41,861 nucleotides of DNA from Campylobacteraceae bacterium (GTDB lineage: Bacteria; Campylobacterota; Campylobacteria; Campylobacterales; Campylobacteraceae), in the NCBI GenBank assembly GCA_031257555.1, contig JAIROK010000133.1:1-41861 (forward strand), written 5' to 3'. Positions 30,254-41,861 of this stretch are shown here, piece by piece (the first letter of the stretch is position 1; every line of letters starts with the position of its first letter). Under the pieces are notes generated by a model. It was not told where the DNA came from. It ran no database searches and saw only the letters and a list, made by a program, of their open reading frames with translations. A program made the translations under genes and the position numbers.

Positions 30254-30871
30254 TTAATGAATAAGATTAAAATTTTTCCTTAGCATCTTTTTCATATTTT
30301 GCGCTAAAACCAGATAACCATCTTTATTTGGGTGTATTTGATCTGATTTTAAAGATGAGGTTTTCAGGATTGTTTTTAACGTTTCATCATCATATATCAA
30401 GTCATATTGATTTGCCAATTCATCGTAAAATGAAGCTGTATCTATGATGCCAAAACCTTTTAGTATTGGTACTCCGACAAGCACCACCTTAGCACCGTTT
30501 TCATGGATTAGCTCTATCATTTTTGCCAAATTTTGTTTTGTGATTTGTAAATCCTGCTTTCGCAATATGTCATTTCCGCCGTGACACAGGATAACTATTG
30601 ATGGTTTGTATTCGGCTAAAACGTCAGGAAGCCTTGATAACCCAAGGCTGCTTATTTCTCCGGAAATACCGCTGTTTATAACTTTCATATTGAGTAATTT
30701 TGAAAGCTGCGAGGGATAACTTTCATCTTCTTTTGCGCCATAACCTTGAGTTATGCTGTCTCCAAATGCCAAAATAATGACGTCTTGGTTGATATCTTGT
30801 TTATTATTGTTTCTCATGGCAAATAATATCAATAAAATAACGGCGCAAAAAACAAACAGCAACTTTTTCAT
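30254..30871 (-). CDS. SGNH/GDSL hydrolase (TesA-like esterase)
   Basis: This 205-aa protein has an N-terminal signal or membrane helix (about 4-19) and all four SGNH blocks: FGDSITQGYG (Ser 39), the block II Gly in INSGISGE, GGND (Asn 100) and SDQIHPN (Asp 177, His 180). It resembles TesA, the periplasmic thioesterase/lysophospholipase/arylesterase. Cells use such enzymes on acyl esters; the natural substrate is not readable. It follows a 29-aa ORF by only three bases. Confidence 0.9.
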   Translation of the reverse strand: MKKLLFVFCAVILLILFAMRNNNKQDINQDVIILAFGDSITQGYGAKEDESYPSQLSKLLNMKVINSGISGEISSLGLSRLPDVLAEYKPSIVILCHGGNDILRKQDLQITKQNLAKMIELIHENGAKVVLVGVPILKGFGIIDTASFYDELANQYDLIYDDETLKTILKTSSLKSDQIHPNKDGYLVLAQNMKKMLRKNFNLIH

Positions 30872-35918: not shown

Positions 35919-36926
35919 ATGATGAAAAAAATTACTCAAGAAGAGTTTTATCAAAAAAATATATCCAATGCGGTCAGATTGTCTAAAGTAGATGTGCCAA
36001 TAGTAAATCTTAACAATAATTATCATAATAACTGTTTCGATAAAAATATTTTTATGATATATGCAAAAAATATAAAAATTTATCCGGACTTTTTTGTTGA
36101 AATAAGTGATGGAATGTTTGTTGAAGATTTTGGACATAGAGAACAAATTGAAAAAAATATAAAGAAGTGTTTTATAACTCCAGATATCATAAATCAGGAA
36201 GTTTTTTTGTGCGGAGGTCATACGAATTATTATCATTGGTTACTTAATTGGATGCCAAGGTTATTTTTGTATGAAATAGCCAAATTATCATGTTCAGTGC
36301 TTATAAATAAGAATTTAACTACTTTTCAAAAAGATACATTGAAAACTATTTTTCCAAATTTGAAGTTCAAATTTTTATTTATAAATGAACCGACAATTTT
36401 TACCAAAGCATATATACCAAGTTTTATTTTAAATCCACAGCATAGCCCATTTGCTATACAAAAAATCAGATCCAAAGTTTTATTCAATACAAATTATAAT
36501 TTTTACAATGAATCTTTTAATAAAATTTATATCAGTAGAAAAAATGCGAAATGCAGGCGTATATTAAACGAGGAAGAGTTGATCAATTTTTTAAAAAGCG
36601 AAGGCTATGTTGTCATATATCTTGAAAAAATGAGCTTTTTAGAACAGGCAAAAGTGTTTTTTTCTGCAAAAAGGATAGTGTCTCCACATGGAGCTGGATT
36701 AGCAAATCTTATATTTATTTCTCCAAAATGTACCATTGTAGAAATACGAAATAATTGTTTTACCAAAGTCTTTTGGAGTTTAGCCTCAATGCTTGATTGT
36801 GATCATTACAAAATTTGGGAGGGAAATACAACAGTTGGCGAAAATGCTTCTTTTCTTGAGAAACAAAGAACTGATATATACGTAGATCTGGAAAAGTTTA
36901 AGACTGAAAATAAGAATTTTTTATAG
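35919..36926 (+). CDS. GT61-like glycosyltransferase (DUF563)
   Basis: This 335-aa protein shows the DUF563/GT61 pattern: HTNYYHWLLNWMPRLFL in the middle, KIYISRKNAKCRRILNEEELINFLKSEGY, and SPHGAGLANLIFISP (about 257), the usual nucleotide-sugar site, followed by VEIRN. Such enzymes add sugars in capsule, O-antigen or other surface glycans. It has tandem ATGs (35919 and 35922) and no strong ribosome site. It precedes a capsule-type gene by 14 bases. Confidence 0.8.
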   Translation: MMKKITQEEFYQKNISNAVRLSKVDVPIVNLNNNYHNNCFDKNIFMIYAKNIKIYPDFFVEISDGMFVEDFGHREQIEKNIKKCFITPDIINQEVFLCGGHTNYYHWLLNWMPRLFLYEIAKLSCSVLINKNLTTFQKDTLKTIFPNLKFKFLFINEPTIFTKAYIPSFILNPQHSPFAIQKIRSKVLFNTNYNFYNESFNKIYISRKNAKCRRILNEEELINFLKSEGYVVIYLEKMSFLEQAKVFFSAKRIVSPHGAGLANLIFISPKCTIVEIRNNCFTKVFWSLASMLDCDHYKIWEGNTTVGENASFLEKQRTDIYVDLEKFKTENKNFL

Positions 36927-36940
36927 AGAATATATAAAGC

Positions 36941-38395
36941 ATGCGAATACTCATACAATGTGGCGACCATTTTGAAAATCAAATCAGAATAAAAACGTTA
37001 GTAGAAGAATTATTGTGTTTTGGATATGAGCCATATGTTCTGGTTTATAGCAGCCATTGTGGTAGATTGCTTTTAAATTCAGGAGCGAAAATCATAGCTC
37101 TTAACGATTATGTGAGCAAAATTGATATTTCAACTCCATTATTAAACAAAGAGATAGATTACGGAATTAAATATGCAGATATTGTAGAATTTGAACAGTT
37201 AAGACGACCCATGATTATGTGGCCTGGACAAATTAAAAAAACATTGTTAAGTGTTAAAAAACACTATACTGCTATAAAAAAAATTATTAAAAAATATAAT
37301 CCGAAATTTATTTTTATATGGAATGGTTATACTGGATATGTAGCCAATATATTAAGAATTTATGTCAATAGATTTAATATTCCTGCTGCGTACATGGAAA
37401 GAGGCATCTTGAAAGATTCATTGTTTGTGGATAATAATGGTGTAAATGGAGCTTCAAGTCTTTCAAATTTATCTCCGGAATATTTTGATATGATTGATTT
37501 GAGCAAAGAAGATCATGCATATATTAAAAAAATCTTTTCACCAAAAAAAATAAAAAACATTGAAAATATTAAAAAAATTTTTTTCCCATTGCAAGTTCAA
37601 TACGATACAAATATAGTAATGTATTCACAATTTTCAAGTATGAGAGAAGCATTTTTAAAAATTTATAATAAACTTAATGACAATGGGGTAAAATTTTTAT
37701 TAAGACCGCATCCAGAAGAAGAAAAGAATATTTGTTTGAATATTCCTATGTATAAAAATGTGACTGTTACTTCAGACAAAACACTTCGAGAATGGCTTGA
37801 GTGGTCTGATGCTGTTGTAACGATAAATAGCACAGTCGGAATGGAAGCTATTATAGCTGGTAGACCGGTCATAGCTATGGGTAATTCTATATATTCATCT
37901 GCTGGATTAACTTTTAAATTAAATGATGAAATAAAGATATTTGACTCAAATAAAATTTACCAAAGACTCATAAAATATTTCAAATATCTGCTTGAAAATA
38001 ATATATTAATTGCAAATAAAGAGAACAATTGTGATGTGATCAAAAAATGCATGAATTTGCTTATTAAAAATAAAACATATAATTATAATAAAGAGCGTTT
38101 GCAAATTAAGCCACTTATGTTTGATGGCATTGATTTTGCAGATGTGTATTTGGATATCCCTTTAAATACATGCATAGATACTACATATAGAGATCATAAA
38201 AAACCAATCGACATTGCATGGATTAAAAAAATAGTTTCACAAAATACTGGTATTTCAAATTACACGATACGCAGTGTTGATCATTTTAATAAATCATCAA
38301 ACTTCTCGGTTAAAGTAGTGTCGGAGTCATTAAATATAAAAAAAGATTTTAATTATGATATGACAATTGATATTTATGGAAATATTATTCAATAA
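36941..38395 (+). CDS. Capsule polysaccharide protein, KpsS/LipB-like
   Basis: This 484-aa protein matches the Capsule_synth family (PF05159): an N-terminal domain with RILIQCGDHFENQIRIKTLVEEL, then FFPLQVQYDTNIVMYSQF (about 209-226), LLRPHPEE (about 253) and VVTINSTVGMEAIIAGRPVIAMG (about 293-315), the two signature blocks. KpsS/LipB proteins are Kdo-transferases or related enzymes needed to start or export group 2 capsules. The last 100 residues (about 380-484) do not look like the family and may be an added domain. It is followed by a GTG-start glycosyltransferase 16 bases later. Confidence 0.75.
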   Translation: MRILIQCGDHFENQIRIKTLVEELLCFGYEPYVLVYSSHCGRLLLNSGAKIIALNDYVSKIDISTPLLNKEIDYGIKYADIVEFEQLRRPMIMWPGQIKKTLLSVKKHYTAIKKIIKKYNPKFIFIWNGYTGYVANILRIYVNRFNIPAAYMERGILKDSLFVDNNGVNGASSLSNLSPEYFDMIDLSKEDHAYIKKIFSPKKIKNIENIKKIFFPLQVQYDTNIVMYSQFSSMREAFLKIYNKLNDNGVKFLLRPHPEEEKNICLNIPMYKNVTVTSDKTLREWLEWSDAVVTINSTVGMEAIIAGRPVIAMGNSIYSSAGLTFKLNDEIKIFDSNKIYQRLIKYFKYLLENNILIANKENNCDVIKKCMNLLIKNKTYNYNKERLQIKPLMFDGIDFADVYLDIPLNTCIDTTYRDHKKPIDIAWIKKIVSQNTGISNYTIRSVDHFNKSSNFSVKVVSESLNIKKDFNYDMTIDIYGNIIQ

Positions 38396-38411: not shown

Positions 38412-39962
38412 GTGAAAAAAATTTTAGTACTTATTCATCAATTTAATTCCGTGCAAATGTCAATGCTTAAAAAGATAGTAAAGCTTGCAGATAATGCAAC
38501 TTTTTACACTATGCAAAATCTTACTAATCGTACAGAGAATTTAAAGTTTTTAACATGTATCAATGATTATGAATATAATAAAATGTGTTCTGAAGCAGAT
38601 GAATTATTGATTGTTGCTACTGATGATTGGATTCCTCCCGAAACTGTGATTAATAAATTTTTTTCAAATAGTGTAAAAGAGATTAAAGTTATCAAACAAG
38701 ATGGCACACTATCTAATTTATTTGCGCCAACTGGCAAGAATAGGGTTTTACTAATTTTTCCTGGCTCTGTATTTCCAATAAATCTTGGCTCTCATCAAAG
38801 AGTTTTTAATATAATATACAATTTACGCAAAAATGATATATTTGTAGATCTCTTGGCTACGCTTCCAAAAAATGCTGATGTTGAAAAATATAGATTGGCA
38901 TTACGAGGGTTTTGTAGCAATGTCTACTTTTATAAAAATAGAGCAAAAAAATATGCAAAATCAGTTCTTGCTAAGAGAGTTATTGACAAATGCATATTAA
39001 AACTGTTATCCAAAGAATCTACTCTTCCTGATCTGTTTTCTGAAAGGTGTTTTTTTAAACCTACAGAATCGTGTAAGCGATGGGTCAACTCTTTATATTT
39101 ATCAAATCAATATAAAAACATAATAGTATCTTATGCTTGGATGTTGCCGTCTATAGAATACATTAAAGTTGATATCAATAATTTTAAATTATTTTGCGAT
39201 ACTCACGATGTTCAATTTGTTAGAAATACTTATATAGCGGATAAAAAACAGAGGTTTTTTTATTTTGCAAAACAAGAGAGGAAATTGGAATTGAAACTGT
39301 TAAATGACTGCGATATTGTTATAGCAATTTCAGAATCTGATAAAAAATATTTCGAAGCAGAACTAAATAAATCAAAAGTAATAAAATCATCGCCTGGTTT
39401 TGAATATGCCTTAAAGCCTATACGGCAACGTCCGCCGGGTAGAGCAATAAATTTTGGTTTCATTGGTGGAAAAATGTCTGCCAATGTGGATTCTTTACAT
39501 TTTATTCTTGACAATTGGTGGCCTGTAATTAAAAAATATTCTCCAAATAGTCGTTTGTATATAGCAGGTTCAGTTTCTAGCGATGTGACATTATTGCCAA
39601 AGATATTTTATGATGAAATGATTATTAAAATGGGATTTGTTAAAAATATTGATGATTTTTATAATTCTATAGATGTTGCTTTAAATCCGGTTACTGTGCA
39701 AGGCGGATTAAATTTTAAAAGTGTTGAAGCTGTTTTTGCAGGAAAGCATCTATTCACAAACTACCTTGGCCAAGAATGTTTGGGTAAAACTTTTTCATCG
39801 TTTGTAATTGACAATGAAAATGATATTATGATATTTTTTAAAACTTTTGAATTTGACTTGAAAGCAGATAAGAAACGCAGAATTTTTGCTCAAAATCAAG
39901 CCAAACTACTTTTTTCAAGCAATGTTGCAAAAAGTAGTTTAGTACATTGTTTATCGTTGTAA
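38412..39962 (+). CDS. GT4-like glycosyltransferase
   Basis: This 516-aa protein has an extra N-terminal part (about 1-108), then a GT-B glycosyltransferase: NRVLLIFPGSVFPINLGSHQRVFNIIYNL, FCDTHDVQFVRNTYIA, and the donor-binding half with NFGFIGGKMSANVDSLHF, NSRLYIAGSV and LNFKSVEAVFAGKHLFT, the usual place of the catalytic E/SVE motif (KSVEA here). It likely acts in the same surface polysaccharide pathway. The start is a GTG at 38412; an ATG is at 38460 if the extra part is not translated. The base composition is clearly more AT-rich than the core genes to its left. Confidence 0.78.
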   Translation: MKKILVLIHQFNSVQMSMLKKIVKLADNATFYTMQNLTNRTENLKFLTCINDYEYNKMCSEADELLIVATDDWIPPETVINKFFSNSVKEIKVIKQDGTLSNLFAPTGKNRVLLIFPGSVFPINLGSHQRVFNIIYNLRKNDIFVDLLATLPKNADVEKYRLALRGFCSNVYFYKNRAKKYAKSVLAKRVIDKCILKLLSKESTLPDLFSERCFFKPTESCKRWVNSLYLSNQYKNIIVSYAWMLPSIEYIKVDINNFKLFCDTHDVQFVRNTYIADKKQRFFYFAKQERKLELKLLNDCDIVIAISESDKKYFEAELNKSKVIKSSPGFEYALKPIRQRPPGRAINFGFIGGKMSANVDSLHFILDNWWPVIKKYSPNSRLYIAGSVSSDVTLLPKIFYDEMIIKMGFVKNIDDFYNSIDVALNPVTVQGGLNFKSVEAVFAGKHLFTNYLGQECLGKTFSSFVIDNENDIMIFFKTFEFDLKADKKRRIFAQNQAKLLFSSNVAKSSLVHCLSL

Positions 39963-40020: not shown

Positions 40021-41861
40021 ATGGTTATTAGTAAAAAAAGTTGTGAATATGGAAAAGATATTTTTGATATATCTTATGAAGCTTTTGTTGAAAATAATAT
40101 ATTTACCATAAGGCTTGATGTAAAAAATGATGAAGATTTGCTTTTCGAATACCGTTTTCTTGATATGTCTCTCGAAATAGGTAGAATTGCATTTACTAAA
40201 GAAAAGTCAGTCAGTTTTCAATTAAAAAGATTTGGCAGATTAGGCATAAGAGTATATTGCAAAAAAACCAGTTCTTCAAGTGTAAATTACACATTTTTAT
40301 CGGGGCGCATTGAGTATAATGAAAAAACGGCTTTTGAATGTCTAAATCCAAATAAACAAAATTATATTGAAGCAGTATCGCAAATACTTGACATAGTCGA
40401 AATAAAAAATAAAAAAACTGAAGCTGTTATGCAGGTCATAAACAATTTGCATGCAATATCTTCATTTAATTACAATATCACTGAATACTTTAAAGAACAA
40501 AATATAAATGAGATAAGTATTTTTGGACATCAAGATGAAGTAGAATTATCAAAACTTATATATATAAATGCAAGATACGCAAAAGACTTTAGCCTGAAAT
40601 ATTGTTTGGCAAATAACTATTTTGAATATCATATACCATTAATAATCGGAATGAATACGCTAATTAAGCATAAAACGTTTGATGAAACTATAATCTTAAA
40701 CGAAACTGATACCATATTATTTTGTGTTTCCATAAGAGATGAAAAAATTTTAAATGATATTAAAAATAAGACCAAAGCAAAAGTAATTCACCTATTGGAC
40801 GTGATATGGAATATTTTATTAACCCAATCTTATACCAAATATTTAGCAGAAATAAAAAACAATAATCCCAATATTCCAATTATATTTTGCTTGTTTCCAA
40901 ATGTGGAATTTGTGCAAAATAAATCTGAGATCGAACAAAAAACACAAAATGACTTTTGGTTGAAAAACAAAATAACTCCTCCGGCGCTTAAAAGGTTTGG
41001 GTATTCATTTGAAGATAGTATAATGTTAAACAAAGGTCATGATTTAATTAAAAATAATAACATCTCTTGTGCAAAGAATATCAATAGTAAGTATCGCAAT
41101 GTAGTAAACAATTTCAGGCTCACAACAGATACACCTGATAATTTCAAAAACACAATCTATATTTTTGGCAGTAGTGTAACATTTGGGTTTGGTGCGTATG
41201 ATGAGGATACAATAGCTAGCAATCTACAAAGATTAATTAATGAGTATTTTAAAGAAAATGTATCCTATTGTGTTTTAAATTGTGCAAATTATGGAGGAGA
41301 AGACCATGATTATCAGTTTGATCTAATGAAAACAATAAGTTTTAAAATCGGAGATATAATTATTATAAGTGGGCACAAGCAACATATAAGTAATGCAGCA
41401 AGAAATTATTCTATATTTTGCCCAACCCAACACGCCTTCGAAAGGCCACATAACATGGGCGAAGTGTTTATCGATAAATTACACTTAAATAAAATCGGCA
41501 ACCAAAAAATAGCTGAACTTTTATTTCAAACAATGTTAGACAATCATTTGTTTGATAACAAATCAAACGATGAACAAGAAAAGATAAAAGGAAATGATGC
41601 CGATGCTTTACAAGCTGAAGGTAACACTGAAAAGACAAAAGAAAAGAAAACAAACACACAAATAGTTAAAAATAGTTTTATCCCCAAAGAAGAAAATGAA
41701 AATCTCAAAAAGTATAAAGAGTTACTATTAAAGAATAAAACCAAAACAAAAGGAAAAATAGGTTCTATTGTTATGAATTGTAATCCTTTTACTTTAGGAC
41801 ATAGATATCTTATAGATCAATCAATTAAAAAAGTTAATCATCTATATATCTTTGTAGTTGA
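40021..41861 (+). CDS. Multidomain SGNH - nucleotidyltransferase protein, 3' end cut by the window
   Basis: The frame from ATG 40021 stays open through the right edge (613 codons). AAAGGAA (40004-40010) is the ribosome site, with an in-frame stop at 40000-40002. Parts: a beta-sandwich of about 90 residues (FTIRLDVKNDEDLLFEYRF...), a Rossmann-like region (about 150-260, NEISIFGHQDEVELSKLI), and an SGNH-like domain with FGSSVTFGFGAYDEDTIA (about 382, Ser in the GDS position), YGGED (about 425) and DKLHLNKIGNQKIA (about 485, Asp and His). A Lys/Asn/Glu linker follows. From about 580 comes GSIVMNCNPFTLGHRYLIDQ, the start of a citrate lyase ligase (CitC)-type nucleotidyltransferase with TxGH. No citrate lyase genes are present, so a role in polysaccharide decoration is inferred. 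Confidence 0.75.
   Translation, partial: MVISKKSCEYGKDIFDISYEAFVENNIFTIRLDVKNDEDLLFEYRFLDMSLEIGRIAFTKEKSVSFQLKRFGRLGIRVYCKKTSSSSVNYTFLSGRIEYNEKTAFECLNPNKQNYIEAVSQILDIVEIKNKKTEAVMQVINNLHAISSFNYNITEYFKEQNINEISIFGHQDEVELSKLIYINARYAKDFSLKYCLANNYFEYHIPLIIGMNTLIKHKTFDETIILNETDTILFCVSIRDEKILNDIKNKTKAKVIHLLDVIWNILLTQSYTKYLAEIKNNNPNIPIIFCLFPNVEFVQNKSEIEQKTQNDFWLKNKITPPALKRFGYSFEDSIMLNKGHDLIKNNNISCAKNINSKYRNVVNNFRLTTDTPDNFKNTIYIFGSSVTFGFGAYDEDTIASNLQRLINEYFKENVSYCVLNCANYGGEDHDYQFDLMKTISFKIGDIIIISGHKQHISNAARNYSIFCPTQHAFERPHNMGEVFIDKLHLNKIGNQKIAELLFQTMLDNHLFDNKSNDEQEKIKGNDADALQAEGNTEKTKEKKTNTQIVKNSFIPKEENENLKKYKELLLKNKTKTKGKIGSIVMNCNPFTLGHRYLIDQSIKKVNHLYIFVV

Follow-up and report, generated by a model that had tools for sequence, protein, structure and literature searches.

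A CitC-type nucleotidyltransferase fused to an SGNH-like domain in surface-glycan gene clusters, with a probable role in attaching small acids to surface sugars

Introduction

What does a nucleotidyltransferase domain of the citrate lyase ligase (CitC) type do when it is joined to an esterase-like SGNH domain and lies beside surface-glycan genes? CitC itself acetylates a thiol of CitD by way of acetyl-AMP. The question is raised by the terminal gene of a Campylobacteraceae contig of 41861 bases, which was analysed as a whole and is referred to here as the window. A preliminary description, made from the sequence alone, had seen four parts in one chain (a beta-sandwich, a Rossmann-like part, an SGNH-like region and the motif NPFTLGH), had seen no citrate lyase genes nearby and had proposed that a small acid or alcohol is attached to, or removed from, a surface polymer. 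Proteins of this kind occur in bacteria of three phyla, probably all from guts. Because they combine an acid-activating CitC half with an esterase-like domain and are encoded in surface-sugar clusters, attachment of small acids to surface sugars is the probable function, and the route is probably previously undescribed.

Domain architecture

The fusion gene (Table 1) begins with ATG and runs for 613 codons without a stop; it is truncated solely by the contig end. The contig is exactly as long as the window, so there is no sequence to the right of the gene. Just the first ~34 residues of the CitC-type domain lie in the window, and statements about the complete domain are drawn from relatives. 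An assembly chimera is ruled out because the identical domain order recurs in independent metagenome-assembled genomes (MAGs) and in two other phyla, and the fusion is confirmed as a real observation. The reading frame, AlphaFold, Pfam and the relatives together bear out the four-part chain that had been described. The contig of one same-genus relative (G020:C14, locus L028) is also exactly 41861 bases; the fusion position differs between the two and the shared length is apparently a coincidence.

Table 1. Positions of the fusion gene, its parts and neighbouring genes in the window.
Feature	Position	Strand	Evidence or remark
Free-standing GDSL/SGNH protein, beside MFS transporter	30254-30871	-	Yardstick for SGNH profile
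Glycosyltransferase family 61 protein, first glycan-cluster gene	35919-36926	+	PF04577, E 2.7e-27
KpsS/Capsule_synth-type protein	36941-38395	+	PF05159, E 2.8e-16; TIGR04396, E 2e-12
GT4-type glycosyltransferase, 58 bases upstream of fusion gene	38412-39962	+	PF13692, E 1.2e-8
Fusion protein ORF, 613 aa, 3' cut	40021-41859	+	Beta-sandwich, Rossmann-like, SGNH and CitC-type nucleotidyltransferase parts
N-terminal beta-sandwich, residues 17-99, fibronectin-III-like fold	40069-40317	+	AlphaFold; Foldseek weak
Long helix, residues 115-148	40363-40464	+	AlphaFold
Rossmann-like alpha/beta part, residues 153-291	40477-40893	+	AlphaFold
SGNH domain, residues 342-507	41044-41541	+	AlphaFold topology, alignment, hhalign, NF047474
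Candidate SGNH nucleophile Ser385, block I FGSS	41173-41175	+	Alignment
Family signature PHNMGEVF, residues 476-483	41446-41469	+	Alignments
Block V D485-x-x-H488 (DKLH)	41473-41484	+	Alignments
CitC-type nucleotidyltransferase domain start, residues 580-613	41758-41859	+	PF08218, E 6.6e-12
Motif NPFTLGH, residues 588-594	41782-41802	+	Sequence, alignment

The N-terminal half is described from an AlphaFold model of residues 1-540, built with six sequences (mean pLDDT 74.8). The beta-sandwich weakly resembles fibronectin-III folds (Foldseek, best E 6e-3 among the matches listed), and the Rossmann-like part has no match in a Pfam search. Foldseek returned only FN3-like folds with weak E-values for this model and no direct SGNH match among those listed, so the SGNH fold is assigned from profiles and topology rather than from a structural match. 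A full-length AlphaFold model of a 769-aa relative has low confidence (pLDDT 61).

The order of strands and helices in the region assigned to the SGNH domain is SGNH-like. Single-sequence Pfam searches with this part stay below cut-offs (0.019-0.085), with a sub-threshold GDSL match at residues 381-415; hhalign of the SGNH profile against the bona fide GDSL protein of the same window gave 94.9%. The SGNH/GDSL-type esterase model NF047474 matches 9 of 14 family members (best 8.1e-9), with scores far under its family cut-off of 300 bits. Block I reads G-x-[SCT] across the alignment: the nucleophile position is Ser in the Campylobacteraceae, Treponema and several other members, Cys in the G538 copies, in G623zN and in G702b, and Thr in the Propionibacteriaceae member. 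A PH..GE signature is invariant (17/17 aligned members) and DxxH is present in nearly all of them, with Asp replaced by Glu in one, while the block III GxND Asn of the oxyanion hole is absent throughout the 17-sequence alignment. The block V His of the Propionibacteriaceae member (L031) is displaced from its usual place, which, with its Thr in block I, means that the SGNH chemistry is possibly not universal in the family.

The Pfam Citrate_ly_lig match in the window covers positions 1-34 of 182 and stops there because the contig end cuts the gene. In uncut relatives PF08218 is complete (1-182, 196-242 bits), whereas the generic CTP-transferase family CTP_transf_like scores ~21 bits. The motifs N-x-NPFT-x-GH, EED-x-S, RF-x-G-x-EP and ISA[ST]-x-VR are common to these relatives and canonical CitC in the alignment; the nucleotidyltransferase motifs NPFT-x-GH and ISA[ST]-x-VR are thus intact in relatives. 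Scores with TIGR00124 are 207.8, 214.1 and 231.9 bits against a cut-off of 262, compared with 411.7 for true CitC, and PF05636 (HIGH_NTase1) scores 16-22 bits, below its cut-off of 27. No GNAT domain is found by Pfam in the fusion relatives. The modelled C-terminal domain of the 769-aa relative matches CoaD (phosphopantetheine adenylyltransferase; TM to target 0.76) and also TmcAL. When the CitC domain was compared with PDB sequences, weak matches to CoaD and TmcAL were the only ones, and there was no CitC structure among them.

Distribution and evolution

The fusion occurs in 4 of 14 genomes of the genus, which are the genome of the window (G000) and G020, G052 and G062. Full-length relatives from this genus have 769 (G052), 783 (G062), 963 (G020) and 768 aa (a paralogue in the window's own genome). 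Their parts are, in order, a beta-sandwich of FN3-like type, for which one relative has a substitute, the Rossmann-like part, the SGNH domain and a complete CitC-type nucleotidyltransferase. The G020 protein carries a hexapeptide acetyltransferase at its N-terminus. In the own-genome paralogue (contig C121, L016, 132-2438) the N-terminal 150 residues differ and have no Pfam match; its neighbour is a 1105-aa HAD-containing protein of the type found in G020.

A scan of GTDB contigs with a single protein gave no relatives. A scan with the SGNH alignment over 85,000 species, each represented by one genome, recovered only five loci, in three Campylobacteraceae MAGs, one Treponema MAG (G328) and one Propionibacteriaceae MAG (G329). 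The Treponema member has 609 aa and is without the beta-sandwich; its MAG derives from the gut metagenome Emb289 of the termite Embiratermes neotenicus (PMC7024585). The Propionibacteriaceae member has the beta-sandwich and is cut by its own contig end. The in-depth search covered three phyla, and in the phylum of Treponema it added G538 with four tandem copies (L050, 10314-18455, all intact), G623 with three copies, one of them split, and G702 with three copies, one of them broken; the broken or multi-frame copies are L054 in G623 and L097 in G702. Plasmids and viral contigs were searched and contain no relatives. In a nucleotidyltransferase-domain tree of 49 rows, the 14 fusion rows form one clade apart from canonical CitC (support 100/99). 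The three Campylobacteraceae rows are nested within spirochaete rows, with moderate support for inner branches, which suggests transfer of the fusion between phyla. Paralogue comparisons give dN/dS of ~0.1-0.3, and the fusion genes are thus under purifying selection.

Absence of citrate lyase genes

Because the 3' side of the window is missing, relatives and the remainder of the genome were searched for citrate lyase genes. There is no citD, citE, citF, citX or citG at any of 15 fusion loci, compared with cit genes at 32 of 37 canonical CitC loci, most of which were read over only ~1.5 kb per side. Genome-wide searches for CitF and CitD found neither in G000, G020 (99% complete), G052, G062 or the Treponema genome; sister genomes with canonical CitC, used as positive controls, contain both. 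The Propionibacteriaceae genome has no CitD and only a sub-cut-off match to CitF, and CitF is absent from G623 and G702. CitF occurs twice in G538, once adjoining a separate standalone citC at 3.025 Mb, and the fusions lie at 1.64 Mb, 1.38 Mb away. The observation that no citrate lyase genes lie nearby thus extends from the window to the 15 fusion loci examined, and a citrate lyase operon is rejected for the fusion because its loci have no cit genes and the fusion genomes of the genus are without CitF and CitD. One protein with a CitE-like fold, encoded near the fusion of L054, is a C-C bond lyase of PF15617 rather than CitE.

Glycan context

In the window, the GT61, KpsS-type, GT4-type and fusion genes share one strand and are separated by successive gaps of 14, 16 and 58 bases. 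A glycan-synthesis gene adjoins, or is fused to, the module at 9 of 14 fusion loci according to Pfam, with neighbours profiled selectively, so that the repeated glycan linkage named as support in the preliminary description is found, with partner genes that differ among loci. These partners include Capsule_synth (L013), a hexapeptide domain (L015), GT2 and Glf (L030), GT2 and a heparinase-like protein (L031), and GT2/DUF4422/GT8 (L052). At L053 a polysaccharide pyruvyl transferase and an epimerase are fused to the module and GT8 adjoins, and L095 (926-5932) encodes a 1669-aa protein with an FrhB/FdhB-type iron-sulfur part, a polysaccharide pyruvyl transferase, the Rossmann/SGNH/CitC module and an NAD epimerase. 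The four-fusion locus of G538 (L050/L051) is of the O-antigen/galactofuranose type; its genes encode Bac_transf, Glf and GlfT2-type proteins, an ABC-2 exporter and a pyruvyl transferase. Five of the 14 loci (L014, L016, L054, L096 and L097) have no recognised glycan gene under the same selective profiling of neighbours. The KpsS-like protein of the window shows no clear relationship to the protein encoded beside the own-genome fusion paralogue and only a weak one to the neighbour of the G020 fusion.

Some of these loci have further unusual features. In L051 (1-1404) and L050 (18486-20000) the polysaccharide pyruvyl transferase seems continuous with a region that resembles thiamine-diphosphate enzymes. 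The linker contains the motif ITPKKIVKAFIPYGILKI, which also occurs in the N-termini of 2 of the 4 adjacent fusion genes, with near matches in the other two; domain shuffling inside the locus is therefore suggested. In L096 (4943-7744) an ILEI-like domain precedes the fusion (PF15711, 24.6-27.3 bits against a cut-off of 27, with no stretch that passes alone), and a stretch that resembles it by eye is present in an ORF of L030 (2200-4608).

Proposed mechanism and alternatives

The preferred reading, to which we give an even chance, is that the fusion would be a cytoplasmic, ATP-dependent and CoA-independent glycan acyltransferase, with a CitC-type domain that forms acyl-AMP and an SGNH domain that places the acyl group on a sugar. 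We infer three chemical steps, together with the acyl group and the acceptor. The CitC-type domain would bind ATP through T-x-GH and ISAS-x-VR and would adenylate a small carboxylic acid (acetate by default) to give acyl-AMP and pyrophosphate, comparable with CitC and TmcAL. The acyl group would then move to the SGNH nucleophile (Ser, Cys or Thr), with the SGNH domain standing where true CitC has a GNAT domain before the nucleotidyltransferase, and from there to a hydroxyl group on a glycan precursor. Binding or co-modification of the glycan may be helped by the beta-sandwich and Rossmann-like parts or, in relatives, by the pyruvyl transferase and epimerase that are fused to the module. Each half has a precedent: TmcAL converts acetate and ATP to acetyladenylate and transfers the acetyl group directly without CoA (PMC12514573), and in OatA the SGNH Ser receives an acyl group from a partner domain and passes it to the glycan (PMC12148441). 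The three alternatives for the SGNH nucleophile (Ser, Cys and Thr) would fit an acyl-enzyme step.

With regard to the activated group, which had been described as an acid or an alcohol, an acid is favoured by the 196-242 bits as CitC against ~21 bits as a generic CTP-transferase; an alcohol is disfavoured, with no CDP-alcohol transferase among the profiled neighbours. Since the G020 relative already has a hexapeptide domain of the acetyl-CoA type, its CitC half is possibly not the acetate supplier there. Copies c and d of G538 have diverged (NCNP to TAGP, EEDKS to KDNKT, AGEEP to VGTEP), whereas copies a and b have not, and the altered pocket could indicate another acid as substrate.

It is unlikely that the CitC-type domain instead makes a nucleotide-activated building block, an alcohol or acid linked to AMP or CMP, for a separate transferase to add to the glycan, with the SGNH domain only binding substrate. 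The fold is common to TagD- and CoaD-type nucleotidyltransferases, CoaD being the structural match, and one member has an incomplete SGNH triad; this has to be set against the bit scores, the profiled neighbours without a CDP-alcohol transferase, and the restriction of one SGNH position to Ser, Cys or Thr, which suggests a retained nucleophile. Distinctly unlikely is an arrangement in which the CitC half acylates the glycan or a carrier directly and the SGNH half, as an esterase, takes the acyl group off again. Many SGNH proteins are esterases, as is the type to which NF047474 belongs, but the fusion lacks the Asn that hydrolases have in block III, a property of the SGNH transferase OafB as well; its nucleophile can also be Cys or Thr, and a single chain seldom combines opposing activities.

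As a relocated citrate lyase ligase, the protein would acylate the thiol of a carrier (an undetected ACP), and the acyl group would be used elsewhere; in favour of this are the closeness of the domain to CitC, its nearest family, and the established action of CitC on the thiol of CitD. We consider this very unlikely, given that CitD (PF06857) is missing from G020, G000, G052, G062 and the Treponema genome, and that CitF and the GNAT domain of CitC are missing too. The broken or frame-split appearance of the copies in G623 and G702 might point to a degenerate remnant, or to neutral domain shuffling without specific function, yet purifying selection, a single conserved clade across phyla and four intact tandem copies make this extremely improbable.

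Comparison with known systems

The acyltransferase reading combines features of several known systems. The fusion relatives resemble CitC (TIGR00124; PF08218) in their complete PF08218 domain with its four motifs; they differ in having Rossmann-like and SGNH parts in place of GNAT, in scoring below the TIGR00124 cut-off, in forming a separate clade, and in being without a cit operon, as well as without CitF and CitD in the fusion-only genomes of the genus. As in the AT3-SGNH proteins OafB and OatA and the MBOAT-SGNH system PatA-PatB, an SGNH domain is paired with a domain that would supply acyl groups for modification of a surface polymer (PMC7448272, PMC12148441). OafA and OafB are SGNH acetyltransferases with an atypical oxyanion hole without the block III Asn, a feature shared by the fusion, and OafB illustrates that an SGNH domain lacking this residue can be a transferase paired with an acyl-donor domain (PMC7448272). 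No AT3 or MBOAT domain is found by Pfam in any fusion protein. The partner in the fusion would instead be a soluble, ATP-dependent acyl-adenylating domain, which would leave no donor role for acyl-CoA.

TmcAL (tRNA-Met cytidine acetate ligase, PF05636) has a fold related to that of the CitC-type domain, but it acts on tRNA and its family model matches the fusion below cut-off. We know of no SGNH domain in TmcAL. The LA_2486 family SGNH/GDSL-type esterase (NF047474) is the best curated match of the fusion SGNH domain, from which the present family is distinguished by the PH..GE signature and the fusion to CitC. In the open-licence literature, no paper was found that connects citrate lyase ligase to SGNH domains or to the synthesis of polysaccharides. 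A different kind of CitC fusion occurs in a genome from the phylum set of Treponema, where canonical CitC is fused to CitG (ATP:dephospho-CoA triphosphoribosyl transferase; L098, 9070-10848).

Known SGNH-type glycan O-acyltransferases use acyl-CoA via a membrane partner. If the acyltransferase reading is true, surface polysaccharides would be decorated by a different route, in which a single soluble chain activates a free acid with ATP, and this would suit guts that are rich in acetate and other short acids. As a tentative extension, these proteins may represent a third class of SGNH-based glycan acyltransferase that would be soluble, would use ATP and a free carboxylic acid rather than acyl-CoA and would pass the acyl group within one chain from the CitC-type site to the SGNH nucleophile; the diverged c and d paralogues of G538 might then use different acids, and the module may have been traded among gut bacteria of different phyla. 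The fusion is also a case of a CitC domain recruited away from citrate lyase, so that automatic names of the form '[citrate (pro-3S)-lyase] ligase' would be misleading for such proteins.
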